Origin: Desulfuromonadales bacterium
Lineage (GTDB): Bacteria > Desulfobacterota > Desulfuromonadia > Desulfuromonadales > BM103
Length of the DNA: 32,954 nucleotides
Reading direction: 5' to 3'
NCBI GenBank assembly: GCA_023701265.1
Contig: JAMPXI010000016.1
Coordinates: forward strand, 1 to 32,954
The notes below the pieces were generated by a model. The model was not told where the DNA came from and did not search any database. It saw only the letters and a program-made list of their open reading frames with translations. Positions 1 through 32,548 of the stretch are shown here, piece after piece (the stretch's first letter is position 1; every line of letters begins with the position of its first letter). The translations under genes were made by a program, and so were the position numbers.

Positions 1-1439
1 GCATCGAACAGGGTATTGACGCCGCGGCTGCCGAGCAGGTTGCCGCCTGCCAGCACCGGCCGCTGCGCCGCTGCCAGTTGCGTGCGCAGCTCGCCCAGTT
101 TGGCCTGCCAGGGTGCGTCGAGGGCACCCGAAGCCTCCTCGGTGAAAAAGTGCAGGGCATCGTCGAGCTGTTCGGCGGGCAGGGGCAGATGGGTGAAGCT
201 GCAGGGGAGTTCCACCGGGCGTGGATCGATGACCACGACCCGGCCGCCGGCCCGTACCGCCTGGCGGATCGCCAGGGCGAGCAGCGGTCCCTCGGCCAGC
301 GGGTCGGCGCCGACCAGCACCACCAGATCGCTGCGGCGAACATCGGCCAGGCTGCGGGCGTAGCGTTCAAGGTGAGCTTCAGTAATGCGTGCGGCGCGAT
401 CGCGCTCAGCGTGCGCATCGAAGACCAGCCGCGTGGTGCCGAGGGCCTGTGCCCAGTCGCGCAGCAGCACGTTGGCTTCGAGACTGGCGCGCGGTGAGCC
501 GAGCAGGGCCACACTCTGCGGGCCGTGGCTGGCGATGATCGCGGCGAGCCGGTCACGGACCGCGTCGATGGCCGTGTTCATGGCCACGTGAAGTCCGTCG
601 ACGTGCGCGCGGCGGGGTCGCGCCGGATCGTTGTTGGTCCCGGCGCCGAAACGGCCGCGGTCGCAGATGAAAAAGCCGTTGACGTCGCGATTGATCCCCG
701 CACGCACTCGCTGCAGCTCGCGAAAACGTGCGCCTGGAACGGTCGCGCATCCCAGGCTGCACAAGGGACAGATCGACGGCGCTTCCTGCAGGTCCCAGGG
801 GCGGCTCTTGAAACGGAAGGTTTTATCGGTGAAGACCCCGGTCGGGCAGACGTCCACCAGGTTGCCGGAAAACGGGCTCTCCAGCTGACCGTCACGGACC
901 CGGCCGAAGTAGACCCGGTCGCGCGAGCCGAACACGCCGAAATCGGTGCCGCCGCAGTAGTCGCGGTAGGTGCGCACGCAGCGGTAACAGGCGATGCAGC
1001 GATTCATCTCGTGGGCGATGTACGGGCCGAGGTCCTGATTTTGGTAGGTGCGTTTTTTGCCGGTGTAGCGGCGGATGCCGTGGCTGCCGGCCACAGTCAT
1101 CTCCTGCAGCTGGCACTCCCCCCCCTCGTCGCAGACCGGGCAGTCATGGGGGTGGTTGGTCATCAGCCATTCGATCACGTGGCTGCGCAGCTCCATGGCG
1201 GTCGGGTCGAGCGTGGAGACAATCATGCCGTCTTTCGCCTTGACCATGCACGCCATCTGGATTCCGCTGGCCTTGCCGTCGCTGATCCGCATGGCGCACA
1301 GCCGGCACGCCCCCACCGCCCCGAGCGCTTCGTGGTAGCAGAAGTGCGGGATGACGATGTCGAGGGCGCGCGCCGCCTCGAAGACGTTGGTCCCCTCGGG
1401 CACGGTAATCTCGCGGCTGTCGATGGTCAGGGTTGGCAT
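1..1439 (-). CDS. nuoG: NADH-quinone oxidoreductase subunit G (NuoG), C-terminus truncated by window edge
   Basis: Own translation of the minus strand from ATG at 1439: MPTLTIDSREITVPEGTNVFEAARALDIVIPHFCYHEALGAVGACRLCAM...HDCPVCDEGGECQLQE...; [2Fe-2S] and NuoG N-terminal [4Fe-4S] motifs, then a molybdopterin-oxidoreductase-like domain. Open to the window edge, so absent from the ORF track. Confidence 0.95.
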   Translation of the reverse strand, partial: MPTLTIDSREITVPEGTNVFEAARALDIVIPHFCYHEALGAVGACRLCAMRISDGKASGIQMACMVKAKDGMIVSTLDPTAMELRSHVIEWLMTNHPHDCPVCDEGGECQLQEMTVAGSHGIRRYTGKKRTYQNQDLGPYIAHEMNRCIACYRCVRTYRDYCGGTDFGVFGSRDRVYFGRVRDGQLESPFSGNLVDVCPTGVFTDKTFRFKSRPWDLQEAPSICPLCSLGCATVPGARFRELQRVRAGINRDVNGFFICDRGRFGAGTNNDPARPRRAHVDGLHVAMNTAIDAVRDRLAAIIASHGPQSVALLGSPRASLEANVLLRDWAQALGTTRLVFDAHAERDRAARITEAHLERYARSLADVRRSDLVVLVGADPLAEGPLLALAIRQAVRAGGRVVVIDPRPVELPCSFTHLPLPAEQLDDALHFFTEEASGALDAPWQAKLGELRTQLAAAQRPVLAGGNLLGSRGVNTLFD

Positions 1440-1462
1440 GGGGTCTTACTTTCCGACGAGCC

Positions 1463-2083
1463 CTAAGGGGACGCCGGGATCCTTCCGATTTCAGCAAGGC
1501 GTTTCAGAACCTGCCGGGAGATGTCGAGGCGGTCAGAGTGGGCGCCTCCGATACTTTTCGACAGTTTTCTCAACGCCTGCCTGGTTTCAGCGAGAAGCTG
1601 GTTCATTGCAGCAGACATGCTCCCTTTCGGATCGCTGGCACAGATCCGCGGTGGCACGATGGAGACGAACGAAGCGCATGTCATCGGCCGAATCTCGTAA
1701 ATCTGGCATCGATCGTTGTCCAACAGTGCGCAGGGTATCTTCAGGCGCATGAAATTCTGAGCCGCCAGGCTTCCGGCCTCACCCGGGTCCTCGCAGGCAT
1801 TGAGCAATTCCGCGTGATTCATGAGTTGTCTTTCCCGCTGTGCTGCCCGCTCAATGAAGCGGGCCAAAAGCATCTCATCCTGCAACAGTTGCGCGGCGAT
1901 AATATCAATCTCGGCACTGCTCACGAAAAAAATATGGTTGCAACAGTGGGCACAGCCTTCCTTGCAGAAAGGCGATTCACGAGTGCCCAGTACTGACATT
2001 TTGCGGTTGAATTCGGCCAACAACTGCTTTGCTCTTGTCAGGTACCGCTGATACAGAAAATCGTCGAATTGCCTGCTCCCCAT
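1463..2083 (-). CDS. YkgJ/UPF0153-like cysteine-cluster protein
   Basis: 206 aa; CKEGCAHCCNH (CxxxCxxCC) plus CALLDNDRCQIYEIRPMTCASF, typical of YkgJ-family putative Fe/Zn-binding proteins; GAAGGGGGA Shine-Dalgarno upstream. Confidence 0.85.
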   Translation of the reverse strand: MGSRQFDDFLYQRYLTRAKQLLAEFNRKMSVLGTRESPFCKEGCAHCCNHIFFVSSAEIDIIAAQLLQDEMLLARFIERAAQRERQLMNHAELLNACEDPGEAGSLAAQNFMRLKIPCALLDNDRCQIYEIRPMTCASFVSIVPPRICASDPKGSMSAAMNQLLAETRQALRKLSKSIGGAHSDRLDISRQVLKRLAEIGRIPASP

Positions 2084-2132
2084 GAAGTCCCCCTTCAGTA
2101 GGCAAATGAGATTGAAAAATATAATCAGGTTA

Positions 2133-3404
2133 TTAGCTTATCGGGCATCGTCCCCGCTTCACGTGATCTTCCAGTTCGTCGCCGAATTTCGTCAGCAGGG
2201 AGCCCACTGGCCCCATCGCCCCTTCGGCAAGGGCGCAGAACGAGCGGCCGCTGATGTTTTTCACCTGGTCGCGGAACATGTCGAGCAGTTCCTGGCTGCC
2301 GCGCCCGGCCTCGATCTCCTCCAGCAGCCAGACCACCATCGGCAGACCGTCGCGGCACGGCGTGCACCAGCCGCAGCTTTCGCGGGCGAAGAAGCGCGCC
2401 AGGTTCAGCGTCGCCGCGACCATGCAGGTCGTTTCGTCGAACACCGTGATCCCGGCGGTGCCGAGGCGGCTCCCCGCCTGCTCCATGTGCACGTGATCGA
2501 GGGGGGTGTCAAGCTGTGCCGCAGTCAGAAACGGTGTCGACGCCCCGCCCGGCAGGCAGGCCTTGAACGTGCGCCTGCCACGCACTCCGCCACCGCACTG
2601 CTCGACCACTTCACGCAGCGGAATCCCCATCGGCAGCTCGAAGCATTCGGTGCGCTCGAGATGCCCGGAAAGCCCGACCAGCAGGGTGCCTGCCCCCTCG
2701 GGGGTGCGCGCCAGGCTCCGGTACCACTCGGCGCCGCCGGTGAAAATGTGCGGCACGTTGGCGAATGTCTCGACGTTGTTGACGTTGGTCGGCTTGCCGA
2801 ACAGCCCAAACTGTGCCGGGAACGGCGGCTTGCTGCGCGGGTTCGGCCGGCGTCCCTCCAGGCCGTTGATCAGGGCGGTCTCTTCGCCGAGGATGTAGCG
2901 GCCGGCGCTGCGGTGCACGTGCAGCTCGAAGCCGAATCTCGAACCGAGGATGTCGCGGCCGAGATAACCCTTGCCTGTCGCCTCGGCGATGGCGCGCTCG
3001 ACATTTTGCGCACAGGTCTCATAGGCATAGCGCAGGAACACGTAGCCCACGGGGATCTGCATGGCGTAGGCGGCGATCGCCATCCCCTCGACCAACTGGT
3101 GCGGGTCGGCCAGCAGCAGCTGATGGTCCTTGTAGGTGCCCGGCTCCATCTCGTCGCCGTTGGCCAGCAGGTACTTCTCCCCCGGTTGGTCGGTCGGGAA
3201 GAACGACCACTTGAGTCCGGTCGGAAAGCCGGCCCCGCCCCGCCCGCGCAGGTTGGCGGCCTTGACCTGCTCGCGCACCTCCTGCGGCGCCATCTTCAGC
3301 GCGGCGCGCAACCCCTGGTAGCCGCCGCCGGCCTCGTACTCGGCCAGGAAAGCGGTTGCGCCGGGTCGGCGGTTCTTGAAGAGAATTTGCGGGTAATTGT
3401 TCAT
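2133..3404 (-). CDS. nuoF: NADH-quinone oxidoreductase subunit F (NuoF)
   Basis: 423 aa; GRGGAGFPTGLKWSF, NGDEMEPGTYKDHQLL, and ESCGWCTPCRDG Fe-S motif. Confidence 0.97.
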   Translation of the reverse strand: MNNYPQILFKNRRPGATAFLAEYEAGGGYQGLRAALKMAPQEVREQVKAANLRGRGGAGFPTGLKWSFFPTDQPGEKYLLANGDEMEPGTYKDHQLLLADPHQLVEGMAIAAYAMQIPVGYVFLRYAYETCAQNVERAIAEATGKGYLGRDILGSRFGFELHVHRSAGRYILGEETALINGLEGRRPNPRSKPPFPAQFGLFGKPTNVNNVETFANVPHIFTGGAEWYRSLARTPEGAGTLLVGLSGHLERTECFELPMGIPLREVVEQCGGGVRGRRTFKACLPGGASTPFLTAAQLDTPLDHVHMEQAGSRLGTAGITVFDETTCMVAATLNLARFFARESCGWCTPCRDGLPMVVWLLEEIEAGRGSQELLDMFRDQVKNISGRSFCALAEGAMGPVGSLLTKFGDELEDHVKRGRCPIS

Positions 3405-3431
3405 TCAGTTGAAATCAATTCGTGTGTCCCG

Positions 3432-3490
3432 GTAGGGGCAGGCCCCCGTGCCTGCCCTGCTTGTGGGCGGCCACAGGGGGCCGCCCCTAC
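3432..3490. repeat. Palindromic intergenic element made of two tandem GC-rich hairpins with GTAGGGGC/GCCCCTAC ends
   Basis: gtaggggcaggcccccgtgcctgccctgcttgtgggcggccacagggggccgcccctac: terminal inverted repeat plus internal GGGCAGGC/GCCTGCCC and GGGCGGCC/GGCCGCCC hairpins. Confidence 0.75.
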
Positions 3491-3491
3491 A

Positions 3492-3974
3492 TCATGCCTC
3501 ATTGCGGTAACCATCAAGAATTGCATCGATCTTCTCAGGCGTCAGCGTCCCAAAGGTGGTCAGACCGATCATCATCGCCGGCGCCTCGCCGCAGGCGCCG
3601 AGGCAACAGGTCGGCAGCAGGGTGAACATTCCATCGCTGGTGGTCTCACCGAAACCGATGCCGAGGACCTTCTGCAAGTGCGCGGCAATCGCGTCCCCGC
3701 CGTCGGCCCAGCAGCAGATCGAATCGCAGACATGGATCACCCGTTTCCCCACGGGCCGGCGGAAGATCTTGTCGTAGAAGGTGGCGATCTCCTCGACCTC
3801 CACCGGTAGCACGCCGAGCAGTTCGGCAACCAGATCGACCCCGGCGTCCGGCACCCAGCCGTGGTGTGCCTGAACCGCCCGCAACGCATCGACGATCAGC
3901 TCGTGCGGATGCTCGATCGCCGCAGCCTTGGCGCGGAAGGCATTGACCTGGACCTGTGGCAGCAATTCGCTCAT
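3492..3974 (-). CDS. nuoE: NADH-quinone oxidoreductase subunit E (NuoE)
   Basis: [18 protein letters not shown]...; [13 protein letters not shown]...[14 protein letters not shown] thioredoxin-like [2Fe-2S] motif. Starts inside the listed 3492..4508 ORF; start overlaps the nuoBCD stop (ATGA). Confidence 0.95.
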
Positions 3975-6334
3975 CGGTCCAGATCCGCCAAAACGAAATC
4001 GACGGCGCCGAGGATGGTGATCAGGTCGGAGAGCAGCCAGCCCCTGGACATGGCCGGCAGCGCCTGCAGGTGCGGGAAACTCGGGGTGCGGATGCGCAGC
4101 CGGTAGGGGATGCTGTCGCCATCGCTGACCAGATAGTAGCCGCACTCCCCCTTGCTCGACTCGATCGCCCGGTAGCATTCGCCGCGCGGCGGCGTCATCC
4201 CGCGACTGACGTTGAGGAAGTGAGGGATCAGCGTCTCGATGTCGTTGAGCCCGGCCTCGCGCGGCGGGTAGGTGTAGCGGCAGTCGGCGTTGACATAGGG
4301 GCCGCCCGGCATGTCCGCCGCCGCCTGTCTGACGATGCGCAGGCTCTGGCGCATCTCGTGCAGGCGCACGATGTAACGGCTGAAGCAGTCGCCGCTGCCA
4401 TGGGTCGGGATGTCGAAATCGAAGCGCTCGTAGCCCGAGTAGGGCATTTTCTTGCGCAGATCCCAGGGGATCCCGCAGGCGCGCAGGTTCGGTCCGGTCA
4501 TTCCCCAATCGAGAGCCTGGTCGAGGGTGGTGACGCCGATTCCTTCGGTGCGCCGGCGGAAGATCGGCCCGTCGGTCATCAGCTTGTCGAAGTCATCGAC
4601 GGTCCTGGCAAAGTCGCGGGTGAAGGCGTCCACGGTCTCGCGCCAGCCTGCGGGGAGGTCGGCCGGCAACCCGCCGATCCGGAACCAGGCCGGGTGCATG
4701 CGTCCGCCGGTGATCAGTTCGACGATGTCGAAAATCCGCTCGCGGGCGTCGAAGGCATAGAAGACCGGGGTCATGGCGCCGACGTCGTGGGCGTAGGTGC
4801 CGAGCCACACCAGGTGGTTGGCGATGCGGAACAGCTCGCAGAGCAGCACGCGCACCACCTGCGCCCGCTCCGGCACGGTGACGCCGAGCAGCGTCTCCAG
4901 CGGGTAAAGGTAGGCCAGGTTGTTCTGCACCCCGGAGATGTAGTCGATCCGGTCGGTGTACGGAATGAACTGGTTCCAGTGCTGGCGTTCGCCGATCTTC
5001 TCGGCCCCACGATGATGGTAACCGAGGTCGACGTCGATATCCTCGACCTCCTCGCCGTGCAGCTTGAGCACCAGGCGCAGCACACCGTGGGTGCCGGGGT
5101 GGTGCGGGCCGAGGTTGAGGATCATGGTGTGCTTGTCGGCCCGCAACGGCCCGGCCGCCGGTTTCATCGCCAGCGCCGCTGCAGCCGTGAAGGGGGCCAT
5201 CTCGGTCGCGCGCGACGGATGCTCCTTGCGTAGCGGGTGCCCGTCCCACTGCTCCGGCATGAGGATGCGGCGCAGGTCGGGGTGGCCGGTGAAGCGGATG
5301 CCGAACATGTCGAAGGCTTCGCGCTCGTACCAATTGGCCGAACTCCAGACCCCGGTGGCGGTCGGCGCCTCGGGATAATCGCCATGCAGCGGCACCTTGA
5401 CCCGTACGTAGCCCGGCTCGTCGAAAGAGAGCAAGTGGTAGACCAGGGTGAAGGGGTGCTCCGGACGACGATGGCGCTCGCGTTCGTCGATGGCCGTGAG
5501 GTCTTCCAAGCGGCGGAAACGGCGCGGCGCCCCTTCCTTGAGAAAGCGCAGCAGGTTGATCGCATCGGCCGCTTCCGCTCGGAAGGTCGGCATGTCGGCG
5601 GCATCATCCTCGCGAACCCGGCCGCCGAAACGCTCGAAAACGGCGTGGCGCAGAGCGGGGATTGACGGCGAAAATTCGATCCTGGGTTGCGGTGGGCGCC
5701 AGATCTCGCCGTCGCGCCGCCCCCAGAAGCGCGGATGCTGTTGCGCGCTGCCGCGCAGCGGCGTGTTGCCGTAGCCCGGACCGCGCGGGTCACGACTCTT
5801 GCTGACGCCGTCGACCAGCACCGGCCCGGTCGACCCCTCGCTACCGCCCTGAAGGCCGAACACCTTGCGGGCCGGACGCTCCTCCTTGGCGATCTTCTCC
5901 TGGAGGAGCAGCAGCCCCTGGATGAACGCCTCGGGTCGCGGCGGGCAGCCGGGAACATAGACATCCACCGGCAGGATCTGGTTGATCCCCTGCATGACGC
6001 TGTAGACGTCGTACATCCCCCCGGAGTTGGCGCAGCTCCCCATGGCCATGACCCACTTGGGATTGGCCATCTGTTCGTAGACGCGCAGGATGGCATCACC
6101 CATCCGCTTGAACGGGGTCCCGGAGATAATCATCAGGTCGGCTTCGCGCGGGGAGTTGCGCAGCACCTCGGCGCCGAAACGGGCGATGTCGAAGCGCGGC
6201 GTCATGCTGGTCATCATCTCGACAAAGCAGCACGACAGGCCGAAGAACATCGGCCAGAGACTGTTCTTTCGCCCCCAGTTGATGGCGTCGTCGAGAGAGG
6301 TGAGAACGATGTTGTCGGGCAGGGCGTCGTTCAT
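3971..6334 (-). CDS. nuoBCD: Fused NADH-quinone oxidoreductase subunits B/C/D (NuoBCD)
   Basis: One ORF with, in order, NuoB ([11 protein letters not shown]...GSCANSGG...PGCPPRPE), NuoC ([40 protein letters not shown]), and NuoD ([21 protein letters not shown]...). Likely start MNDALPDN at 6334, overlapping the nuoA stop. Confidence 0.95.
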
Positions 6335-6735
6335 TCGCCGCTCCGCCGGTCGGCGCTGGGCCCCCAGTCGAGGCCGCCCGATTTCCACAGGTGGACCAGG
6401 CCGAGGAACAGCACCAGAATGAAGAACGCCACCTGGGCGAAGCCGGCCCAGCCGAGCCGGTCATAGGCGACCGCCCAGGAGACGACGAAGATCATCTCGA
6501 CGTCGAAAACGATGAAAAAGATAGCCACCAGGTAGAACGGCACCGGTTCGCTCAGGCGCGCCGGCCCGGTCGGCTCGATCCCCGACTCGTAGGCTTCGTC
6601 CTTGGCCTTGCTGTGGGTGCGCTGGCCGATCCCCCAGGAAAGGAGCATCAGCAGGCCGACGAGGCCGACGGCGATCGCGGTGTACAGCCCCAGCGACAGC
6701 AGCGCTTCGAACGATGGCAGGGTCTCGATTGGCAT
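6331..6735 (-). CDS. nuoA: NADH-quinone oxidoreductase subunit A (NuoA)
   Basis: 134 aa; three TM segments; [41 protein letters not shown] signature. Confidence 0.95.
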
Positions 6736-7305: not shown

Positions 7306-7670
7306 TGGCGCTCGCTTGAGAATGGAGTGATAATGCCCAATCGTAATGGCAGTCGCGCATTGTGTCCACCGTCACGTCGCGGTTCGCCCGACAAAAAGGC
7401 GCACGAGGAAACCCCCGCGCGCCATTGCCCGTCCCGTCGGCACGACCTTGTGCCTGGTGATGCTGATACGATTAATTCAAAAGCACCGATCGTGCCAACC
7501 TTAAGGGAATGGGGGAATACGAACAACGTCTGCCTGTAACTGTCGGTCGTTGCCTAATTTGTCGGCGCCGGGCGGCCCGTTTTTTCGACATGCCGGGGAA
7601 AACTTCCTTGACAGTGCCCCGCGGGTTATTTCATCGTGAGACATTGTTTTGCTGACGATGCATTGCCGGA

Positions 7671-9647
7671 GTGTTCATGATCTGGTTTGTTGCAGGGATG
7701 CTGCTGACCGCGTTGTCCGGAGTGCCGGGGCTGTTCGCCGACCGGTTCGGGCGCGGCGGTGAGCGGCTTGCCTGTCTGCTGGTGCTGGCCGGAACGGCAA
7801 GCGCGACCGGCGGAGTGATCGCTGCCCTGGCCTCAGGGGCACCGGCCCTGTTGACGCGGCCATGGTCGGTTCCCGGTGGCGAACTGGCCCTGCGGCTCGA
7901 CCCTCTCGCCGCGCTGTTCATCCTGCCGCTGTGCCTGGTGGTGGGCGGCGGCGCGGTCTACGGCCTCGGCTACTGGCCGCAGCGTGATCACCCCGGCAAC
8001 GGCCGGCGCTTCCGGCTCTTCTACGGGCTGCTCGGCGCCGCCATGATGTTGGTGCTGGCCGCCGACAACAGCCTGCTCTTTCTCTTCTCATGGGAAGTGA
8101 TGGCGGTCGCCGCTTTCTTCCTGGTCACCACCGAGCAGGAACGCGCCGAAGCCCGCCGGGCCGGCTTCATCTACCTGGTTACAGCCCATGCCGGAGCCCT
8201 GGCCCTGTTCGCCATGTTCGCCCTGCTGGCACAGGAGACCGGTTCCCTGCACTTCCCGGCCGCGGCCAGCCTGGCCGGCGGCAGCGCCACCCTGCTGTTC
8301 CTCCTCGGTCTGTTCGGCTTCGGTTTCAAGGCCGGTCTGATGCCGCTGCACATCTGGCTGCCGATCGCCCACGCCGCCGCCCCCAGCCACGCCTCCGCAC
8401 TCCTTTCGGGAATCGTCCTCAAGACCGGGATCTATGGCTTGCTGCGGCTGACCTCGTTTTTCGCCGTCATCCCTGCCTGGTGGGGGTGGACGGTGCTGCT
8501 GCTCGGGGTGGTTTCCGGGGTTTTCGGCGTAGCACTGGCGCTGGCCCAGCACGACCTGAAGCGCCTGCTTGCCTACCACAGCGTCGAGAACATCGGCATC
8601 ATCACCATCGGTATCGGCCTGGCCCTGCTCGGGCGCAGCTTCGGCATGAGTGAGCTGACACTGCTGGGGATGTCCGGCGCGCTGCTGCACGTGGTCAATC
8701 ACGGGCTCTTCAAATCACTGCTTTTTTTCAGTGCGGGGTCGGTGGTCCATGCCACCGGCAGCCGCGAAATCGATCACTACGGTGGTCTGCTCCGGCAACA
8801 GCCATGGACGGCGGTCTGTTTTCTTGGCGGGGCCGTGGCGATCTGCGGCCTGCCGCCGTTCAACGGCTTCGTCAGCGAGTGGCTGATCTACCTGGCGGCC
8901 TTCGGCGCCAGTCGGGGCGAGGGCCTGAGCCTGCGCCTGGCGGTGCTTGCCGCGCCAGCCCTGGCGCTGATCGGTGGGCTGGCGGTCGCCTGCTTCGTCA
9001 AGGTGTTCGGCGTGACCTTCCTCGGCGCGCCGCGTTCCGCGGCGGCGGCAGCCGTCCACCACGATGCCGCGCCAAGCATGCGCGGACCGATGCTGACCCT
9101 GTTGCTGGCCTGTGCCTGGATCGGCCTGCTCCCCGGCACCCTGGCGCCGCTGCTGCAAAGCGCGGTAGCAACCTGGGTGATGCCGGCTAAGGCTGTCAGC
9201 CTGGCGGCGCCCCTTGCGCCGCTGCCGTTGGTCGGCGCGACCGGGTGGGTGCTGCTGATCTATCTTGCCGGGCTCGGTTGGTGGCTGCATCGGCGCACCC
9301 GGCAGGCGCCGCGCGATGTGTCGACCTGGGGGTGTGGCTATGTGGCGCCGACGCCGCGCATGCAGTACACGGCCTCGTCGTTCGCCGACTCCCTGGTCAG
9401 CCAGTTCCGTTTTGGCCTGTGGACCGAGCGCCATGGCGGCAAGGTCAAGGGGCTTTTCCCGGCGACCGGGGAGTTTGCCAGCCACACGCCCGACGCGGTG
9501 CTCGACCGTGCCCTGCTGCCGGGGTTCCGGAGGCTGGCACGCGGCTGCAGCTGGTTGCGCGCCCGCGTCCAGAACGGCCGGGTGCCCACCTATCTGCTGT
9601 ATGTCGCCCTGACCCTGCTGATCCTGCTGATCGTGACCGCGCGCTGA
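7671..9647 (+). CDS. hyfB: HyfB-like antiporter-type membrane subunit (hydrogenase-4/Ehr complex component B)
   Basis: 658 aa, many TM segments; proton-conducting transporter motifs (FGFGFKAGLMPLHIWLPIAHAAAPSHASALLSGIVLKTGIYGL; LKRLLAYHSVENIGII); HyfB-type C-terminal extension (WGCGYVAPTPRMQYTASSFADSLV). GTG start in the track; ATG at 7677 is an alternative. Confidence 0.88.
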   Translation: MFMIWFVAGMLLTALSGVPGLFADRFGRGGERLACLLVLAGTASATGGVIAALASGAPALLTRPWSVPGGELALRLDPLAALFILPLCLVVGGGAVYGLGYWPQRDHPGNGRRFRLFYGLLGAAMMLVLAADNSLLFLFSWEVMAVAAFFLVTTEQERAEARRAGFIYLVTAHAGALALFAMFALLAQETGSLHFPAAASLAGGSATLLFLLGLFGFGFKAGLMPLHIWLPIAHAAAPSHASALLSGIVLKTGIYGLLRLTSFFAVIPAWWGWTVLLLGVVSGVFGVALALAQHDLKRLLAYHSVENIGIITIGIGLALLGRSFGMSELTLLGMSGALLHVVNHGLFKSLLFFSAGSVVHATGSREIDHYGGLLRQQPWTAVCFLGGAVAICGLPPFNGFVSEWLIYLAAFGASRGEGLSLRLAVLAAPALALIGGLAVACFVKVFGVTFLGAPRSAAAAAVHHDAAPSMRGPMLTLLLACAWIGLLPGTLAPLLQSAVATWVMPAKAVSLAAPLAPLPLVGATGWVLLIYLAGLGWWLHRRTRQAPRDVSTWGCGYVAPTPRMQYTASSFADSLVSQFRFGLWTERHGGKVKGLFPATGEFASHTPDAVLDRALLPGFRRLARGCSWLRARVQNGRVPTYLLYVALTLLILLIVTAR

Positions 9648-9665
9648 GGGGAGAAACCGACTTTC

Positions 9666-10586
9666 ATGGAGATGCTGGCCCGCACCGCGTTGCACCTGAC
9701 CCTGCTCCTGCTCTTCGCCCCGCTGCTGCAGGGGGTGATCGTCAGGACCAAGGCGCTGTTTGCCGGTCGGGTCGGGGCCCCGCTACTGCAGCCGTATTAC
9801 GATCTGGCACGGCTGCTGCGCAAGGAGTGCGTTTTCAGCCGCACCACCACCTGGGTCTTCCTGGCCGGACCGGCGGCCGGCGTGGCGGTGCCGATCCTCG
9901 CCGCCCTGTTCATGCCGTTCGGCGCGCTCCCCGCCCCGATTGCCTTCACCGGCGACCTGCTGCTGTTCGTCTATCTCTTTGGTGTGGCACGTTTTTTCAC
10001 CGTGGCGTCGGCGCTGGACACCGGTTCGAGTTTTGAAGGGATGGGGGGGGCCCGCGAGGTGACCTTTGCCTGTCTGGCGGAGCCGATCGTGCTCTTCTGC
10101 CTGATCGTCCTGGCCTGCATCGCCGACGCCATGTCGCTCACCGCGCTGCTCGGTCCGCACCTGGCCGCAACCTGGCGCGGACCCGCCGGCCTTTCCCTCG
10201 GGCTGGTGGTGGTCTGTCTGCTGGTGGTCCTGCTGGTGGAGAATTCGCGCATCCCCTTCGATGACCCGAACACCCACCTGGAACTGACCATGATCCACGA
10301 AGTCATGGTCCTCGACCACAGCGGACCGCCCTTCGCGATGGTACTCTACGGCGCGGCCCTCAAGCTGATGGTGCTCGGCGCCCCGATCGTGCGCCTGCTC
10401 CTGCCGGTGAACACCGGTTTCTGGGTGGTGGATGCCTTGGTGTTCCTGGGCGGGATGCTGCTGCTGGCGGTGCTGGTTGGCGTGATCGAATCGATCATGG
10501 CCCGTTTAAAGCTGGTGCGCATCCCGCAAGTGCTGATCGGTACCACCATGCTCTCCGGGTTCGCCCTGGTCCTGGTGCTGCGATGA
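9666..10586 (+). CDS. hyfC: HyfC/NuoH-like membrane subunit
   Basis: 306 aa; QPYYDLARLLRKECVFS, VVVCLLVVLLVENSRIPFDDPNTHLELTMIHEVMVLDHSGP: NuoH/HycD/HyfC family signature. Confidence 0.9.
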   Translation: MEMLARTALHLTLLLLFAPLLQGVIVRTKALFAGRVGAPLLQPYYDLARLLRKECVFSRTTTWVFLAGPAAGVAVPILAALFMPFGALPAPIAFTGDLLLFVYLFGVARFFTVASALDTGSSFEGMGGAREVTFACLAEPIVLFCLIVLACIADAMSLTALLGPHLAATWRGPAGLSLGLVVVCLLVVLLVENSRIPFDDPNTHLELTMIHEVMVLDHSGPPFAMVLYGAALKLMVLGAPIVRLLLPVNTGFWVVDALVFLGGMLLLAVLVGVIESIMARLKLVRIPQVLIGTTMLSGFALVLVLR

Positions 10587-10611
10587 ACGCGGCCGCCGGA
10601 GGCGTGAAGCC

Positions 10612-11250
10612 ATGACCGAACTGAGCAACCTCTGTCTGCTGCTGGTCATCCTGGTCAACTTCTTCGCCCTGGGGAGTTCCCGACTCGGTGCCTGCATCCA
10701 TGCGGTGGCCCTGCAGGGGGCGGTGCTGGCGCTACTGCCGCTGGCCACCCACGGCCTCAGCGTTCACACCCTGTTGCTGGCCGCCGGCGCCCTGGCCCTC
10801 AAGGGGATACTGATCCCCTGGCTGCTGCTGCGCGCGATCCGCGAGGTGCGCATCCGCCGCGAGATGGAACCGCTGATCGGTTTCGTCCCGACCCTGCTGC
10901 TCGGTGCGCTGGCCACCGCCGGGGCGTTCATCTTTGCCGACCTTTTGCCGCTGATCGACGCGCACCAGGGTGGACTGTTCATCCCGACCTCCCTGGCGAC
11001 CCTGTTCGCCGGATTTCTGCTGCTGATCAGCCGGCGCAAGGCGATCACCCAGGTGGTCGGCTACCTGATCCTGGAGAACGGCATCTTCATCTTTGGCATT
11101 CTGCTCGCCGAAGCGATGCCGCTGATGGTCGAGGCCGGCGTGCTCCTCGACCTGCTGGTTGCCGTGTTCGTCATGGGGATCGTCCTCGACCAGATCAACC
11201 GTGAATTCTCGACGCTCGACACCGAGCAGCTCTCCGCCCTCAAGGAATGA
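10612..11250 (+). CDS. hyfE: HyfE-like (NuoK-related) membrane subunit
   Basis: 212 aa, multiple TM helices; ISRRKAITQVVGYLILENGIFIFGILL resembles the HyfE/NuoK motif; position between hyfC and hyfF. Confidence 0.85.
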   Translation: MTELSNLCLLLVILVNFFALGSSRLGACIHAVALQGAVLALLPLATHGLSVHTLLLAAGALALKGILIPWLLLRAIREVRIRREMEPLIGFVPTLLLGALATAGAFIFADLLPLIDAHQGGLFIPTSLATLFAGFLLLISRRKAITQVVGYLILENGIFIFGILLAEAMPLMVEAGVLLDLLVAVFVMGIVLDQINREFSTLDTEQLSALKE

Positions 11251-11251
11251 G

Positions 11252-12682
11252 ATGATGCTCGCCGCCCTGATCCTTCTGCCGCTGGCGCTCGTCCCGGTCG
11301 CCTGGCTCGCTCCCTGGTACCGGGTGCGCTCGTGGCTGCTGCCGTTGGCCGGCACCATTCACCTGCTGCTGGTGGTGCTGGCACTGGGGAACGTCCCCGA
11401 CGCCGCTCCCGGCGAATGGATCGGTCTCGACCCGCTGTCGCGCCTGGTGCTGCTGGTTGCCAGCCCGCTCTACCTGGGGTGTGCCCTGTATGCGGTCGAC
11501 TACCTGGAGATGCGCCGCGAACGCGGCAACCGGACCATGGTTCCCTGCCTGCTGCTGTTCCTCTCCGCCCTGAGCATGGCGGCGATGTCCCGCCATCTTG
11601 GCCTGATGTGGCTGGCGCTGGAGACGACGACTCTGGCCAGTGCGCCGCTGATCTACTTCAATCGCAACCGGCTCTCCATCGAGGCGACCTGGAAATACCT
11701 GCTGATCTGCTCGGTGGGCATCGCCCTGGCCATGCTCGGCCTGCTCTTTTTCGCCTATGCCGCCCTGCGCGGCGGGGTGCCGGTCAGCCTGCTGCTCAGC
11801 GATCTGCTGGCCGCCGGTCCGGTCCTCTCCCGTCCCTGGCTGCATGCCGGCTTCGTCCTGCTGCTGGTCGGTTTCGGCACCAAGATGGGACTCGCGCCGC
11901 TGCATGCTTGGAAGCCGGACGCCTACGGCGAGGCGCCGGGGCTGGTCGGTGCGCTGCTCGCCGGGGGGCTGACCAGTCTGGCCTTCCTTGCCGTGTTGCG
12001 GACCATGCAGGTGATGGCGGCGGCCGGTGCCCAGGGAGTGGCCCGCCCCCTCCTCCTTGGCCTGGGGCTCCTCTCCCTGCTGCTGGCGGCGCTGTTCATG
12101 ATGCGCCAGGGCGATTTCAAGCGCATGCTCGCCTACTCCAGCATCGAACACATGGGGCTGTTGGCGGTGGGGGTCGGGATCGGCGGGCTGGCGACCTTCG
12201 GCGCGCTGCTGCACATGATCAACAACTCCTTGGCCAAAGGCTGCCTGTTCCTGAGCGCCGGCAACATTCACCGCGCCTTTGCCAGCAAGCGCCTTGCCGA
12301 CGTGCGCGGGGCGCTGGTCGCCCTGCCGTTCTCCGGGGCGCTCTTCCTCACGGCTTTCCTGGCCGTGACCGGCACGCCGCCCTTCGGCATTTTTCTGAGC
12401 GAGTTCACCATCCTGCGCGGCATCTTCGGCGCCGGGCAGCTCTGGGTCGGCCTGGCGGTGCTGGTGCTGCTGGCCACCGTGTTCATCGGCATGGGCGCCT
12501 CGGTGCTCGCCGTCTCCCAGGGTGAGCCGACCGAGCGCGACCTGGCCTTCACCGACCGCTTCCTGCTGGTCGCTCCGCCGCTGCTGCTGCTGCTTGCCGT
12601 CCTGTTCCTCGGCCTGTACATTCCCGAGTCGTTGCGTCTGCTGCTCGAGCAGGCGCAGGCGCTGGTCGAGGGGGGGACATGA
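11252..12682 (+). CDS. hyfF: HyfF-like antiporter-type membrane subunit (NuoL/M/N family)
   Basis: MMLAALILLPLAL...; FGTKMGLAPLHAWKPDAYGEAPGLVGALLAGG, FKRMLAYSSIEHMG; internal start within the listed 11159 ORF. Confidence 0.88.
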   Translation: MMLAALILLPLALVPVAWLAPWYRVRSWLLPLAGTIHLLLVVLALGNVPDAAPGEWIGLDPLSRLVLLVASPLYLGCALYAVDYLEMRRERGNRTMVPCLLLFLSALSMAAMSRHLGLMWLALETTTLASAPLIYFNRNRLSIEATWKYLLICSVGIALAMLGLLFFAYAALRGGVPVSLLLSDLLAAGPVLSRPWLHAGFVLLLVGFGTKMGLAPLHAWKPDAYGEAPGLVGALLAGGLTSLAFLAVLRTMQVMAAAGAQGVARPLLLGLGLLSLLLAALFMMRQGDFKRMLAYSSIEHMGLLAVGVGIGGLATFGALLHMINNSLAKGCLFLSAGNIHRAFASKRLADVRGALVALPFSGALFLTAFLAVTGTPPFGIFLSEFTILRGIFGAGQLWVGLAVLVLLATVFIGMGASVLAVSQGEPTERDLAFTDRFLLVAPPLLLLLAVLFLGLYIPESLRLLLEQAQALVEGGT

Positions 12683-14196
12683 GTCCGCTGCGCGCCGCAG
12701 TCCCGCTGGCCAACGGCGGTGCGGTCCCCCTGGCCAATCTGCCGCTGCTCGGCCGGGGGCATTTCACCGGGGCGCTGCTCGCCGAAGTTGCCGAGGGGGC
12801 GCGGGTTGCCGCCTGTTTTGCCGTCCCCGTCGGCAGCGCCCTTGAACTGTATGCCGTGCTGGCCCGCGATGCGCACGGCGATCTGGCGATCCTGCGCACC
12901 GAAATCGGCGGCGAATATCCCTCGCTGGCGTTGCGCTGTCCCGAACTGCAGCTGTTCGAGCGCGAGATCGCCGAACAGTTCGGCAGCATCCCGACCGGTC
13001 ACCCCTGGTTCAAGCCGGTGCGTTTTCACCGCAGCTGGAACGAGCGGGACGCCTGGGGGCGCGGTTTGGAGCGGCCGCAGCCGGCGGTGCAGGAGTTCTA
13101 CCGGGTGGAGGGGGAAGAGGTCCACGAGGTGGCGGTCGGCCCGGTGCATGCCGGGGTGATCGAGCCGGGGCACTTCCGTTTCCAGTGCCACGGCGAGCAG
13201 ATCATGCACCTGGAGATCGCCCTCGGCTACCAGCACCGCGATGTCGAACGGCTGCTCCTTAACGGCCCGCATCCGGCCACCCCCCACCAGATCGAGACGG
13301 TCGCCGGCGATACCAGCATCGGCCACGCCAGCGCCTGGAGCCAGGTGAGCGAGGCGCTGGCCGGCAGTGACCTGCCCGCGCGCGGCGCGGCGCTGCGCCT
13401 GGTAGCCATGGAACTGGAGCGGCTCGCCAACCACGTCGGCGATATCGGCGCCCTGGCCGGCGACATCGGCTTTCTTCCGACCGCGGCCTACTGTGGCCGG
13501 CTGCGCGGCGATTATCTGAATGCCACCGCCGTGCTGTGCGGCAACCGTTTCGGCCGCGGCCTGGTGCGCCCCGGCGGAGTGGCCGCCGACCTGAGCGATG
13601 AGCAGGCCGCCGCCCTGCGCGAGTGCCTCGTTGCGGTGGCTCGCGACACCCATGGCGCCCTGGAGCTGTTCTTCGACACGCCGTCGGTGCTTGCCCGCCT
13701 CGAAGGAACCGGGCATGTCGCCGTCGAAGACGCCGCCGCCGTCGGGCTGGTCGGCGTGGCGGCCCGCGCCTGCGGCCTGCAGCGTGATGCACGCAAGCAC
13801 CACCCGCTGGGGGCCTACCGGACGGCCGGGATCGAACCCGCCGTCAAATGGGGCGGCGATGTCTTTGCCCGGGCCGCGGTCCGGCAGCGGGAGATCGAAG
13901 ATTCGCTGGTCCTGATCGACAGCACCCTGGCCGCGCTGCCGTCGGGGCCGGTGCGGGCGGAGGGCGGAGCGCCACGGCCAAAAGCTCTGGCTGTGGCGCT
14001 GGTCGAGGGCTGGCGGGGGGAGATCGTCCACGCCGCCCTGACGGATGCTGCCGGCCGCTTCTCCCGCTACAAGATTGTCGACCCGTCGTTCCGCAACTGG
14101 ACCGGGTTGGCGCTGGCGCTGCGCGGCGAGCAGATTTCCGACTTCCCGCTATGCAACAAGAGTTTCAATCTGTCGTACTGCGGGTTTGACCTGTAG
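12679..14196 (+). CDS. hyfG: HyfG/NuoCD-like 'large subunit' lacking [NiFe]-ligand cysteine motifs (Ehr-type)
   Basis: 505 aa; NuoC-like N-terminus followed by NuoD/HycE-like domain (GPVHAGVIEPGHFRFQCHGEQIMHLEIALGYQHRDVERLL). Where hydrogenases have CGIC and DPCxxC, this has AGDT and FNLSYCGFDL-end. Confidence 0.88.
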   Translation: MSPLRAAVPLANGGAVPLANLPLLGRGHFTGALLAEVAEGARVAACFAVPVGSALELYAVLARDAHGDLAILRTEIGGEYPSLALRCPELQLFEREIAEQFGSIPTGHPWFKPVRFHRSWNERDAWGRGLERPQPAVQEFYRVEGEEVHEVAVGPVHAGVIEPGHFRFQCHGEQIMHLEIALGYQHRDVERLLLNGPHPATPHQIETVAGDTSIGHASAWSQVSEALAGSDLPARGAALRLVAMELERLANHVGDIGALAGDIGFLPTAAYCGRLRGDYLNATAVLCGNRFGRGLVRPGGVAADLSDEQAAALRECLVAVARDTHGALELFFDTPSVLARLEGTGHVAVEDAAAVGLVGVAARACGLQRDARKHHPLGAYRTAGIEPAVKWGGDVFARAAVRQREIEDSLVLIDSTLAALPSGPVRAEGGAPRPKALAVALVEGWRGEIVHAALTDAAGRFSRYKIVDPSFRNWTGLALALRGEQISDFPLCNKSFNLSYCGFDL

Positions 14197-14213
14197 TCGG
14201 GTAGAGAAGGACT

Positions 14214-14969
14214 ATGCTGAAGATCATTCGTGAACGTATCCGCCAGGGGCACCGCACCGCCAGCTATCCCAAGGAGGCGCCGGTGCTCCCCGAGCGTTTC
14301 CGTGGCGCTCCGCGGATCGTTCCGGAACTTTGCCGCGAAGGTTGCGGCGACTGCATCAAGGCCTGTCCGTTCGGGGCCATTGAAGGAACCGCCAACGGTC
14401 CGCGCCTCGACCTCGGCCGGTGCATCTTCTGCGGCGCCTGTGCCGCGGCCTGCCCGCACGGCGTGCTGGAATTTTCCCGTGACCACCGTCTGGCCGCGCG
14501 CCGCCGCGAGGATCTGCTGGCTGGTGCCGACGGGCACCGTCTGGCCGGGGCACTGGAGGGGGAGATGCGTCGCCTGTTCGGGCGATCGCTGAAGCTGCGC
14601 CAGGTCTCGGCGGGGGGGTGCAATGCCTGCGAGGCCGATCTCAACGTCCTCAATACCCTGGTCTTCGACCTCGCCCGCTTCGGCATCCAGTTCGTTGCCT
14701 CGCCGCGCCACGCCGACGGCCTGATGGTCACCGGGCCGGTCACCGAGAACATGCGTTTCGCCCTGCTCGAAACCTACGCGGCGCTCCCCGCGCCAAAGCT
14801 GGTCATCGCCTCCGGTGCCTGCGCCATCGCCGGCGGTCCGTTCCGCGGTTCTCCCGAGTGCCACGATGGCATCGGCGACCTTCTTCCCGTCGACCTTTAT
14901 ATCCCCGGCTGCCCGCCACACCCCTACACCGCCCTCGACGGTCTGCTGCGCCTGCTTGGCCGGCTGTAA
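14214..14969 (+). CDS. Fused 2x[4Fe-4S] ferredoxin (HyfH/NuoI-like) and HyfI/NuoB-like small subunit
   Basis: 251 aa; CREGCGDCIKACP and CIFCGACAAACP, then GGCNACEAD...GACAIAGGPF...PGCPPHP (NuoB/HyfI proximal cluster cysteines). Confidence 0.88.
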   Translation: MLKIIRERIRQGHRTASYPKEAPVLPERFRGAPRIVPELCREGCGDCIKACPFGAIEGTANGPRLDLGRCIFCGACAAACPHGVLEFSRDHRLAARRREDLLAGADGHRLAGALEGEMRRLFGRSLKLRQVSAGGCNACEADLNVLNTLVFDLARFGIQFVASPRHADGLMVTGPVTENMRFALLETYAALPAPKLVIASGACAIAGGPFRGSPECHDGIGDLLPVDLYIPGCPPHPYTALDGLLRLLGRL

Positions 14970-30721: not shown

Positions 30722-32548
30722 ATGCACCAGGAAATCCGGCTGCACGGCCATCTTGACGATACCATCGAATACTTTGCCGTGATGGCGGCGCGCGACGCCT
30801 ATACCCGCTACTTCTTCGAAGCGGCCGGTGAAAACCTGCGCTTCTTCTCCCCCGGCAACGAGTTCGTTCTCGGGCGCGAGCAGATCGTTCATCGTGGCAA
30901 CGGTGGTTCGTTCTGCGAGTACATGTTCGGCGTCGACCAGCCGATTGCCGATCTGGCCAAAACCGAGGTTCGCAACCGGCTGGTGCTCTACGGCGCCATC
31001 TACAAAGATGAAAACCAACTTGAATTTACCGGGCAGACCGAGGGGTACAGCAGCTACGAAAAGCTCTTTTTCGAAGGCAATGCCCTCTATAACTGCTTCT
31101 TCTTTCTGACCGGCTCGGTTGCCGGAACCCTGCGCGAGCAGCAGGAGAACATCGCCCGCCTGCTCGGCAAGACGCTCAAACGCTCTGAAAATGTCGGTCT
31201 CGGCGACGATGCCGAGCTGCTCGACGAGATCTACAGCCTGCTCGGCCATCGAAGCTCCCTCTATCTGGTCAAGCTGATCCACAAAAAACACAAGGCGTAC
31301 CATGACGCCTTCAAGGAACTCTATTTTTCCTACAAGTCGATTCCCGACGAAGAGTTCCAGTCCCTGCAGGGGCGCGCCGAAAAATGGGGGATCGACCGCT
31401 ACCAGCAGGAACGGATCCGCATCGATGTGATGTACAAGCATCCCGACAACCAGCGGATCGTCGATGAATACAAGAACATTCTGATCGACTGCAATCGCAA
31501 GGGGAGCATCAATCAGCCGGAGAATGCCCGGCTGACCCGGCTGAAGACCCTGTCGGTGCGCAACAAGATCCCTTCGGCCCTGTTCTACACGATCGACGAG
31601 ATGCTCAAGCACGACAAGCTGGTCGACCTTGACGAGCAGGACTACCTGGCCGAAACCCGCCAGGTGCTGGAGGGAATCTTCCTCACCGAGGCGCAAATCG
31701 ATGCCAGCATCACTGCCGAAGACATGAAGCTGCTGCTCCATGCCAAGCGCCAGGCCACGGAGAACCGCGACCACACCTTCGAGCACATCCTGCTCGAGAC
31801 CGGCAAGGCCTGCGACGAGAAAATTCACGAAGGGGGCGACCTCGCGCCGCTCGAGCACTTCTCCTATATCATTACCTACTTCGACCGCTACGATAACACC
31901 TACGCCAACATCAACGAGCTGGCGTTCATGGAAAACATCAAGTACAGCGAGGAGAAGATCCGCAGCCTGCTCGGCAACAAGAAGGAGTTTGACATCATCG
32001 ACCCGGGTCTCTGGAAGGGGCTGTTCTTCCAGCAGGTCTACGAGAATAAGTACCTTGGCCAGTTTGGCCGCAAGAAAATCCAGTGCCTCGCCAAGGGGCT
32101 GAGGGCCATCGAGGAGAGCCGCCTGGCGGTCCCCGACCTGCTCGGCCAGCTGCGGGGTATCGAGGAGGAGGAGCACCTCTACAACATTCTGCTCTCCCAT
32201 GTGAAAGATCGCATCCGCAACTTCTACTCGCGTTACAATACCCGTGTTGAACAGGATGCCCTGCTCCTCGAAATTGCCGAGGAACTGCGCAACAAGGGGC
32301 TGGTGGCCGAGGAGATCCCGCCGGCGTTGTTCCGCGACGTGGTGGTCAATATCAAAAAAGAGGCGATCTACCTGCACAACCTCCTGCCGAAGATCGTTGC
32401 CGAGCGCGACGTGGCCCTGCGCGAGGATTTCCTCGACAACAGCGGACTCGATCGCTTCTACGTCGAGGAACTCGAACGTGAATACTTCGAGCTCAACAAC
32501 CTCGACATGGAGGACCTTTACCTGATCCGCAAAGGATACGCCGCCTGA
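30722..32548 (+). CDS. Uncharacterised TIGR04442-like protein
   Basis: 608 aa, soluble and mostly helical; recalled similarity to the TIGR04442 family of Deltaproteobacteria; follows the PhnP-like gene closely. Confidence 0.65.
   Translation: MHQEIRLHGHLDDTIEYFAVMAARDAYTRYFFEAAGENLRFFSPGNEFVLGREQIVHRGNGGSFCEYMFGVDQPIADLAKTEVRNRLVLYGAIYKDENQLEFTGQTEGYSSYEKLFFEGNALYNCFFFLTGSVAGTLREQQENIARLLGKTLKRSENVGLGDDAELLDEIYSLLGHRSSLYLVKLIHKKHKAYHDAFKELYFSYKSIPDEEFQSLQGRAEKWGIDRYQQERIRIDVMYKHPDNQRIVDEYKNILIDCNRKGSINQPENARLTRLKTLSVRNKIPSALFYTIDEMLKHDKLVDLDEQDYLAETRQVLEGIFLTEAQIDASITAEDMKLLLHAKRQATENRDHTFEHILLETGKACDEKIHEGGDLAPLEHFSYIITYFDRYDNTYANINELAFMENIKYSEEKIRSLLGNKKEFDIIDPGLWKGLFFQQVYENKYLGQFGRKKIQCLAKGLRAIEESRLAVPDLLGQLRGIEEEEHLYNILLSHVKDRIRNFYSRYNTRVEQDALLLEIAEELRNKGLVAEEIPPALFRDVVVNIKKEAIYLHNLLPKIVAERDVALREDFLDNSGLDRFYVEELEREYFELNNLDMEDLYLIRKGYAA

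Follow-up and report, generated by a model that had tools for sequence, protein, structure and literature searches.

A [NiFe]-ligand-free Ehr complex of the Desulfuromonadales as a probable redox-driven ion pump

What does a membrane complex built like an energy-converting hydrogenase do when its large subunit carries none of the [NiFe] ligands? The question is raised by six contiguous, same-strand open reading frames at positions 7671-14969 of the window, by which we mean the whole analysed stretch of 32,954 nucleotides from a Desulfuromonadales metagenome-assembled genome (contig JAMPXI010000016.1). They encode hyfB-, hyfC-, hyfE- and hyfF-like membrane proteins and, at the tail of the operon, a NuoC/NuoD-type large subunit (EhrL) followed by a small subunit of combined ferredoxin and NuoB type (EhrS). 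The same gene order is found in dozens of genomes from many phyla, which excludes a chance arrangement. Judged by its sequence, the operon is a member of the Ehr (Ech-hydrogenase-related) family, as the preliminary description had proposed: the subunit set and order, the loss of all four metal ligands, a common clade with the Geobacter Ehr proteins and intact pumping residues all agree. The family was reportedly first described by Coppi in 2005, in G. sulfurreducens (GSU0739-45). Published readings of Ehr conflict, one assigning it to hydrogen production (PMC7894505) and another calling it non-functional (PMC13194489), and other papers label it 'function unknown'. The bacterial phyla that contain it number at least a dozen, and published work adds comammox Nitrospira, ammonia-oxidising archaea and Sulfobacillus to its hosts.

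All six genes lie on the plus strand, and profile matches confirmed the homologies earlier claimed for them, including the two antiporter-type, the NuoH-like, the NuoK-related and the Fe-S subunits. EhrA2, the HyfB/NuoL-type antiporter-like subunit (7677-9647), matches PF00361 with 184 bits and NF005086 (hydrogenase 4 subunit B) with 567 bits, below the cut-off of 667; the GTG start proposed at 7671 gives way to the likelier ATG at 7677, since the GGAG at 7668-7671 fits the ATG and overlaps the GTG. EhrB (9666-10586; PF00146, 104 bits) is the HyfC/NuoH-type membrane anchor with the E-channel, and EhrC (10612-11250) is a HyfE homolog whose NuoK-like C-terminal part carries two Glu and whose matches to NF008556 (88 bits) and PF00420 (23.6 bits) each fall under the respective cut-off. 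With EhrA1 (11249-12682; PF00361, 163 bits; NF005044, 293 bits), the HyfF/NuoN-type antiporter-like subunit, the HyfB-, HyfC-, HyfE- and HyfF-type membrane arm is complete at this locus. EhrL (12679-14196; PF00346, 135 bits) joins a NuoC-like N-terminus to a NuoD/HycE-like large subunit devoid of [NiFe] ligands, and EhrS (14214-14969; PF12838 and PF01058) fuses a 2x[4Fe-4S] ferredoxin domain to a NuoB/HyfI-type domain.

In the alignment of EhrL with HycE (7z0s_E), all four [NiFe] cysteines are substituted. An AGDTS motif (residues 209-213; 13303-13317, plus strand) takes the place of the L1 CxxC, aligned with the HycE CGIC and yielding A209 and T212, and the C-terminal segment DFPLCNKSFNLSYCGFDL (residues 488-505; 14140-14193, plus strand) replaces the L2 DPCxxC, yielding S499 and G502. 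This ligand-free pattern is universal in 105 Ehr sequences; the C-terminal segment is near-invariant among them, the protein ends exactly there in 103, and EhrL has no cleavable C-terminal tail. Across Ehr the pocket reads, invariantly, AGD[TS] ... DFPxxNKSFNLSYCG. The quinone-site residues of complex I are replaced as well, H38 and Y87 (Nqo4 numbering) by I161 and G210, so that quinone reduction by EhrL would need other residues.

The ancestry of this subunit is nevertheless that of a hydrogenase. Its sequence matches HycE (PDB 7z0s_E) with 219 bits, and among predictions made for single chains, the AlphaFold2 model of EhrL (pLDDT 87) finds the same formate hydrogenlyase (FHL) subunit as its top fold match (TM 0.85), followed by complex I NuoCD. 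In the large-subunit tree every sampled Ehr sequence falls into one clade with 100/100 support on a stem of 1.63, which includes the three Geobacter Ehr sequences and is sister to E. coli HyfG/HycE, apart from NuoD. Monophyly of the six catalytic group 4 enzymes is rejected (AU test, p = 0.026), and descent of EhrL from inside the group 4 tree is supported. The phylogenetic placement suggested for the HyfG-like protein thus gives a divided answer: an origin within group 4, beside Hyc/Hyf, but in a ligand-free clade of its own, which argues that EhrL is not catalytic as a hydrogenase.

The G. sulfurreducens locus GSU0739-0745 encodes the same set of EhrA-1, EhrA-2, EhrB, EhrC, EhrL and EhrS, also without [NiFe] ligands, in seven loci as opposed to the six genes of the window. 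The Geobacter-type proteins compared came from G. argillaceus, Trichlorobacter and Geotalea, the searched sets not including G. sulfurreducens itself; the window EhrL is 55-57% identical to their proteins and forms one clade with them. The E. coli HycBCDEFG and HyfA-I complexes have homologous subunits and are the nearest catalytic relatives by tree and fold, but the window lacks their [NiFe] site, maturation protease, HyfD and the HycB/HyfA and FdhF partners, and, unlike in E. coli hydrogenase-4, HyfH and HyfI are fused. Complex I shares with Ehr the NuoB, C, D, H, K and L/M/N-type subunits and the channel residues, whereas Ehr is without the NADH module and the H38/Y87 dyad, and the proximal cluster of EhrS has the hydrogenase-like CxxC spacing in place of the tandem CC of complex I. 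Pyrococcus MBS/Mbx (6u8y, 102 bits) and MBH (6cfw, 159 bits) are ferredoxin-linked, ion-pumping relatives, MBS being likewise without [NiFe] function; they are separate from and more distant to EhrL, and their membrane modules differ. A further possible point of comparison is the hyc-like operon Rv0082-0087 of tuberculosis.

The membrane arm is intact. EhrA2 retains the TM5 Glu, TM7 Lys, TM8 Lys and TM12 Lys positions in alignment with E. coli HyfB, EhrB its Glu-rich loop, EhrC the conserved Glu of LENGIF and of VEAG, and EhrA1 the channel Glu and Lys. Against two congeners, all six genes show dN/dS of 0.07-0.22, near the level of NuoBCD; the preserved channel residues and this purifying selection argue that the complex is not a relic.

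EhrS in turn retains 12 of 12 cluster cysteines, corresponding to three predicted [4Fe-4S] clusters. The ferredoxin domain (14331-14453, plus strand) supplies an outer cluster (C40, C44, C47, C80) and a middle one (C51, C70, C73, C76), and C136, C139, C203 and C233 (14619-14912, plus strand) bind the proximal, N2-like cluster, whose ligands are retained in every intact type A and type B sequence. All or most of the outer ligands are gone in about 16 relatives, among them G. argillaceus and T. thiogenes, through about seven loss events, with the four middle-cluster ligands remaining. General degeneracy of the domain was considered and rejected, as the eight cysteines of the domain are all present in 76 of about 102 EhrS and the losses hit the outer cluster; loss confined to that cluster matches the expectation for a working electron wire shortened from the outside. 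The three clusters of the window complex would suit ferredoxin input, and the outer one appears dispensable in relatives. Type-B Ehr is entirely without the ferredoxin domain, so that ferredoxin need not be the donor family-wide.

Taken together, these features argue that the window complex is almost certainly not a hydrogenase and very likely a redox-driven ion pump; with every [NiFe]-site residue replaced, pumping would most likely be driven by another electron reaction. Our preferred reading, to which we assign a probability of roughly 0.6, is a functional type-A Ehr that descends from an FHL-type (group 4a) hydrogenase, no longer has the [NiFe] site and passes electrons from ferredoxin to an acceptor, most simply menaquinone. 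Ferredoxin is a probable electron partner; for quinone as the other partner the odds appear slightly short of even. A soluble low-potential donor, likeliest ferredoxin reduced by 2-oxoacid oxidoreductases, would supply electrons to the outer or middle EhrS cluster, from where they would travel via the proximal cluster to the pocket that once contained the [NiFe] site and there reduce an acceptor, menaquinone being the simplest candidate; the energy released would drive H+ or Na+ through EhrB/EhrC and the two antiporter-like subunits. The genome encodes 2-oxoacid:ferredoxin oxidoreductase-type proteins as well as MqnA/MqnD-type menaquinone synthesis genes. Some carriers of Ehr are aerobes (Rhizobium, Burkholderia and plasmids of Meiothermus), and it is less evident that these would have reduced ferredoxin constantly available.

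The predicted anatomy would be compatible with either net direction in vivo, and a reversed complex would look identical. Proton-motive force would then lift menaquinol electrons to ferredoxin and provide low-potential reductant for CO2/acetyl-CoA assimilation during growth on formate or H2, whose electrons enter at menaquinone, a reading that we regard as possible, though unlikely. It agrees with the missing link to a dedicated donor enzyme and with proteomics of G. sulfurreducens, in which Ehr subunits are higher on formate than in hydrogen-containing conditions (PMC7894505), but the lower abundance on H2 fits it poorly; the rise on formate could reflect another donor or the reverse direction.

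More doubtful is a pocket that reduces a small soluble substrate in place of quinone, by analogy with the proposed reduction of sulfane sulfur by Pyrococcus MBS. The lost quinone residues of complex I, the invariant Ehr-specific motif and the presence of MBS-type enzymes in the same superfamily would suit such chemistry, but 6u8y is a distant match, at less than half the score of HycE, and genes for sulfur or other substrates are not linked to Ehr.

A supercomplex of formate dehydrogenase and Ehr acting as a formate-fed pump, as proposed for Margulisbacteria (PMC6349859) and G. sulfurreducens, would agree with the formate-induced abundance (PMC7894505) and with descent from the FHL branch. We consider it improbable: the window has no formate dehydrogenase gene and no HycB/HyfA-like linker subunit, and when the neighbours of about 100 Ehr loci were clustered to seek a linked donor enzyme, no formate dehydrogenase, NADH module or CODH recurred. 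As initially noted, no hyp or maturation-protease gene is found either in the set of window proteins that we read and scanned. We rejected any inference from the missing hyp genes, which say little: other contigs of the same genome encode hypD as well as [NiFe] hydrogenases belonging to other groups.

It is highly improbable that Ehr is chiefly an energised ion or bicarbonate transporter with a secondary redox part, as in DabAB or NDH-1MS: transporter-related genes do appear in its surroundings (see below), but the Fe-S ligands are strictly retained and a carbonic-anhydrase-like subunit is absent. No more credible is a decaying, non-functional relic, a reading that goes back to a passing statement on G. 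sulfurreducens KN400 and to ehr missense mutations in long anode growth (PMC13194489); the selection values, the intact frames and motifs invariant over many phyla contradict it for this lineage. Least probable of all is that Ehr works as a genuine [NiFe] hydrogenase of group 4 or a formate hydrogenlyase. HyfG/HycE as nearest relatives and the hyp genes of the genome could be cited for this reading, but it is contradicted by the loss of the metal ligands and the lack of a tail for processing; CxxC and DPCxxC are retained in true group 4 enzymes that share this gene order. The ligand, selection and cluster-loss results thus speak against the hydrogen-production and the non-functional readings of the literature alike.

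The sole neighbour recurring across phyla around the clustered loci is a regulator gene that combines an HTH with a PTS-EIIA domain. It is found in 51 of 61 Ehr operons, covering at least 11 phyla, and in 72 of the 87 Ehr genomes of the class, and a literature search for a link between Ehr and a PTS regulator found nothing relevant. An additional antiporter gene is present in about a third of Ehr operons. A second HyfB, together with the regulator, is common at Geobacteraceae loci, whereas the operon of the window's genus is without the regulator. New here are the prevalence of this regulator, the extra antiporter gene, the repeated loss of the outer cluster and the lack of a linked donor gene. 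Tentatively, EhrL may have an active site of a third type within the complex I/group 4 hydrogenase superfamily, an AGD[TS]/NKSFNLSYCG pocket that receives electrons over a short Fe-S wire and is usually encoded under a regulator that senses PTS phosphorylation, with a substrate that would be neither H2 nor a conventionally bound quinone. The results yield ranked, testable predictions, concerning the residues of the new pocket, the entry cluster and the usual PTS-EIIA-type control; should the Ehr reaction be identified, it would close a gap in the understanding of ferredoxin-based energy conservation by anaerobes.

In three Ehr-less relatives the HTH-EIIA regulator lies upstream of a SulP-like transporter, and in a few genomes genes for DUF1275 membrane proteins are found close to Ehr. 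The operon itself lacks the NADH module (NuoEFG), and the adjoining nuoEFG genes belong to a separate, divergent complex I operon, nuoA-nuoBCD-nuoE-nuoF-nuoG (3-6735, minus strand), which lies outside Ehr, was missing from the preliminary description and is separated from it by rnhA alone, an adjacency also seen in three relatives.

The preliminary description had proposed a six-gene Ehr-like (Ech-hydrogenase-related) membrane complex at 7671-14969, and the assignment holds: the genes are closely packed on one strand, and by their Pfam and NCBIfam matches they code, in this order, for an antiporter-like subunit of HyfB type, a NuoH/HyfC subunit, a HyfE subunit weakly matching NuoK, a second antiporter-like subunit, of HyfF type, a large subunit of NuoD type whose N-terminal part is NuoC-like (EhrL), and a 2[4Fe-4S] ferredoxin domain fused to a NuoB-type domain (EhrS). 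The start given there is to be corrected, as ATG 7677 is likelier than 7671 for the first gene, judging by the GGAG at 7668-7671. About 0.9 kb upstream, with rnhA in between, a complex I operon with fused nuoBCD (nuoA-nuoBCD-nuoE-nuoF-nuoG, 3-6735, minus strand) extends past the contig start. The source draft genome (2.72 Mb, 87% complete) carries a second, different NuoD on contig C128, and a 608-aa open frame at 30722-32548 (plus strand) of the window has no Pfam matches. Descriptions of Ehr go back to Coppi 2005 (cited in PMC13194489 and PMC7894505), and the complex has been found in further phyla with its function stated as unknown (PMC6349859, PMC10284858, PMC10432482, PMC4378227); the window is a further representative of this kind.

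The best PDB match of EhrL is HycE of the E. coli FHL (7z0s_E, 219 bits), whose four [NiFe] cysteines align with A209, T212, S499 and G502. Of 105 Ehr large subunits, which come from relatives, from plasmids and from many phyla, most read [AS]GD[TS] at the first site, and the C-terminus reads DFPxxNKSxxxSYxGxDL; 103 stop exactly at this motif, so that a maturation protease has no peptide to cleave. These two losses make a role of EhrL as a hydrogenase very unlikely. Genuine group 4 [NiFe] hydrogenases of the same taxonomic order (loci L053, L054 and L150 in genomes G025, G032 and G035, two of which also encode Ehr) have CxxC and DPCxxC intact. Elsewhere in the window's own genome, contigs C143 and C159 match the [NiFe] large-subunit family over its full length and C56 in split form, with hypD fragments at contig ends. 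The quinone residues of complex I, His38 and Tyr87 (Nqo4, 2fug), align with I161 and G210, and with both sets replaced the pocket is of neither the hydrogenase nor the complex I kind. G210, D211, N493, K494, S495, F496, S499, Y500, C501, G502 and D504 are invariant in 35 sequences of type A, the Ehr class that includes the window, and this replacement motif implies that the pocket would hold one conserved ligand or substrate.

An AlphaFold2 model of EhrL (pLDDT 87, but low at the GPVHAG loop and in the C-terminal tail) has HycE as its best fold match (TM 0.85), followed by complex I NuoCD. A tree of the 49-kDa domain with 45 rows (LG+C20, NuoD as root) gathers every Ehr sequence into one clade (100/100, stem 1.63) that is sister to E. 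coli HyfG/HycE (96/88), with the window's EhrL in type A beside proteins of Geobacter argillaceus, Trichlorobacter thiogenes and Geotalea. Monophyly of the six catalytic group 4 enzymes is rejected at a p-AU of 0.026, a modest value in the presence of long branches. Together, tree and test place the origin of Ehr within the group 4 hydrogenases, as a non-metal lineage apart; the HyfG-like protein named in the preliminary description thus falls by descent inside group 4, yet in a clade of its own without metal ligands.

For the six ehr genes, dN/dS lies at 0.07-0.16 in comparison with one congener and at 0.12-0.22 with a second, near the values for NuoBCD (0.11 and 0.13). The antiporter-like subunits retain the Glu/Lys sites in TM5, TM7, TM8 and TM12, the NuoK-like part both Glu, and the NuoH-like subunit its Glu-rich loop. 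Ehr has been called non-functional for want of NiFe (PMC13194489), a verdict that, given this selection and these predicted channel residues, does not fit the window's lineage.

Assigned on the model of the usual 2[4Fe-4S] pattern, the 12 cluster cysteines of the window's EhrS would ligate an outer (C40/44/47/80), a middle (C51/70/73/76) and a proximal cluster (C136/139/203/233). All eight ferredoxin-domain cysteines are present in 76 of ~102 EhrS sequences, and outer-cluster ligands are lost in ~16 of type A, including named Geobacteraceae (loci L101 and L102); usually most or all four are gone and the four middle-cluster cysteines kept (two alignment gaps are artefacts, and the frame of L127 is truncated). 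On the EhrL tree, this loss takes 7 changes by parsimony. Type B Ehr (EhrL 36-40% identical) is missing the ferredoxin domain and keeps the proximal cluster. Electron entry therefore appears to have shifted inward repeatedly, the outer cluster, or in type B the entire ferredoxin domain, being dispensable for the reaction, a pattern that fits a genuine redox wire. Type A and type B operons adjoin in genome G006 and on a Variovorax plasmid, and DUF1275/YoaK genes lie close to Ehr in a few genomes, a Burkholderia plasmid among them (L047, L056, L041, L042, L058).

Among the neighbours of about 100 Ehr loci, no donor such as a formate dehydrogenase or an NADH module recurs, and plasmid copies (Rhizobium, Burkholderia, Variovorax, Meiothermus) are also without a linked donor. 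We infer that the electron donor is soluble and of low potential, with ferredoxin the likeliest candidate; the genome codes for 2-oxoacid:ferredoxin oxidoreductase-type proteins. Electrons would pass along the three clusters and reach, in the EhrL pocket, an acceptor that may be menaquinone, as MqnA/MqnD-type genes are present; their transfer would drive ion export. Alternatively, the complex may run in reverse, with pmf driving ferredoxin reduction; the higher Ehr levels in formate-grown G. sulfurreducens than in hydrogen-containing cultures (PMC7894505) suit either direction. The suggestion by the same authors that Ehr helps produce H2 from formate is at odds with the loss of the EhrL metal ligands. 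In the ion-export scheme, the parts shown by sequence are the non-hydrogenase large subunit, the three clusters, the intact ion-translocation residues and the selection.

The only gene recurring across phyla beside Ehr operons encodes a regulator that joins HTH_17 to a PTS EIIA-2 domain (Pfam) and carries its phospho-acceptor His in an A(I/L/V)PH motif. Lying upstream of ehr or divergent from it in relatives, it accompanies 51 of the 61 type-A loci whose upstream sequence extends for 1.5 kb or more (e.g., L037:16402-17106), these 51 spanning at least 11 phyla. Among 117 genomes of the class, 87 have Ehr, 78 the full-length regulator and 72 both (Fisher p = 1e-9, ignoring kinship among genomes), within ~14 kb of each other in 64 of the 72. 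The window's genus is without it; genome G032 (locus L037) shares the nuo adjacency and single HyfB of that genus, yet keeps the regulator. A second HyfB-like gene, not found in the window, occurs in 20 of the 61 loci, so that the number of antiporter-like subunits varies from two to three. We found no report of the regulator association, the cluster-loss pattern or this variable number in the later papers on Ehr that were consulted, and claim no priority. In three Ehr-less relatives (loci L062, L063 and L064, in G011, G016 and G014) the regulator precedes a gene resembling a SulP-type transporter, and in another (L061, in G029) it lies beside a DUF1275-like frame, hinting at a regulatory signal common to Ehr and ion or anion transport.
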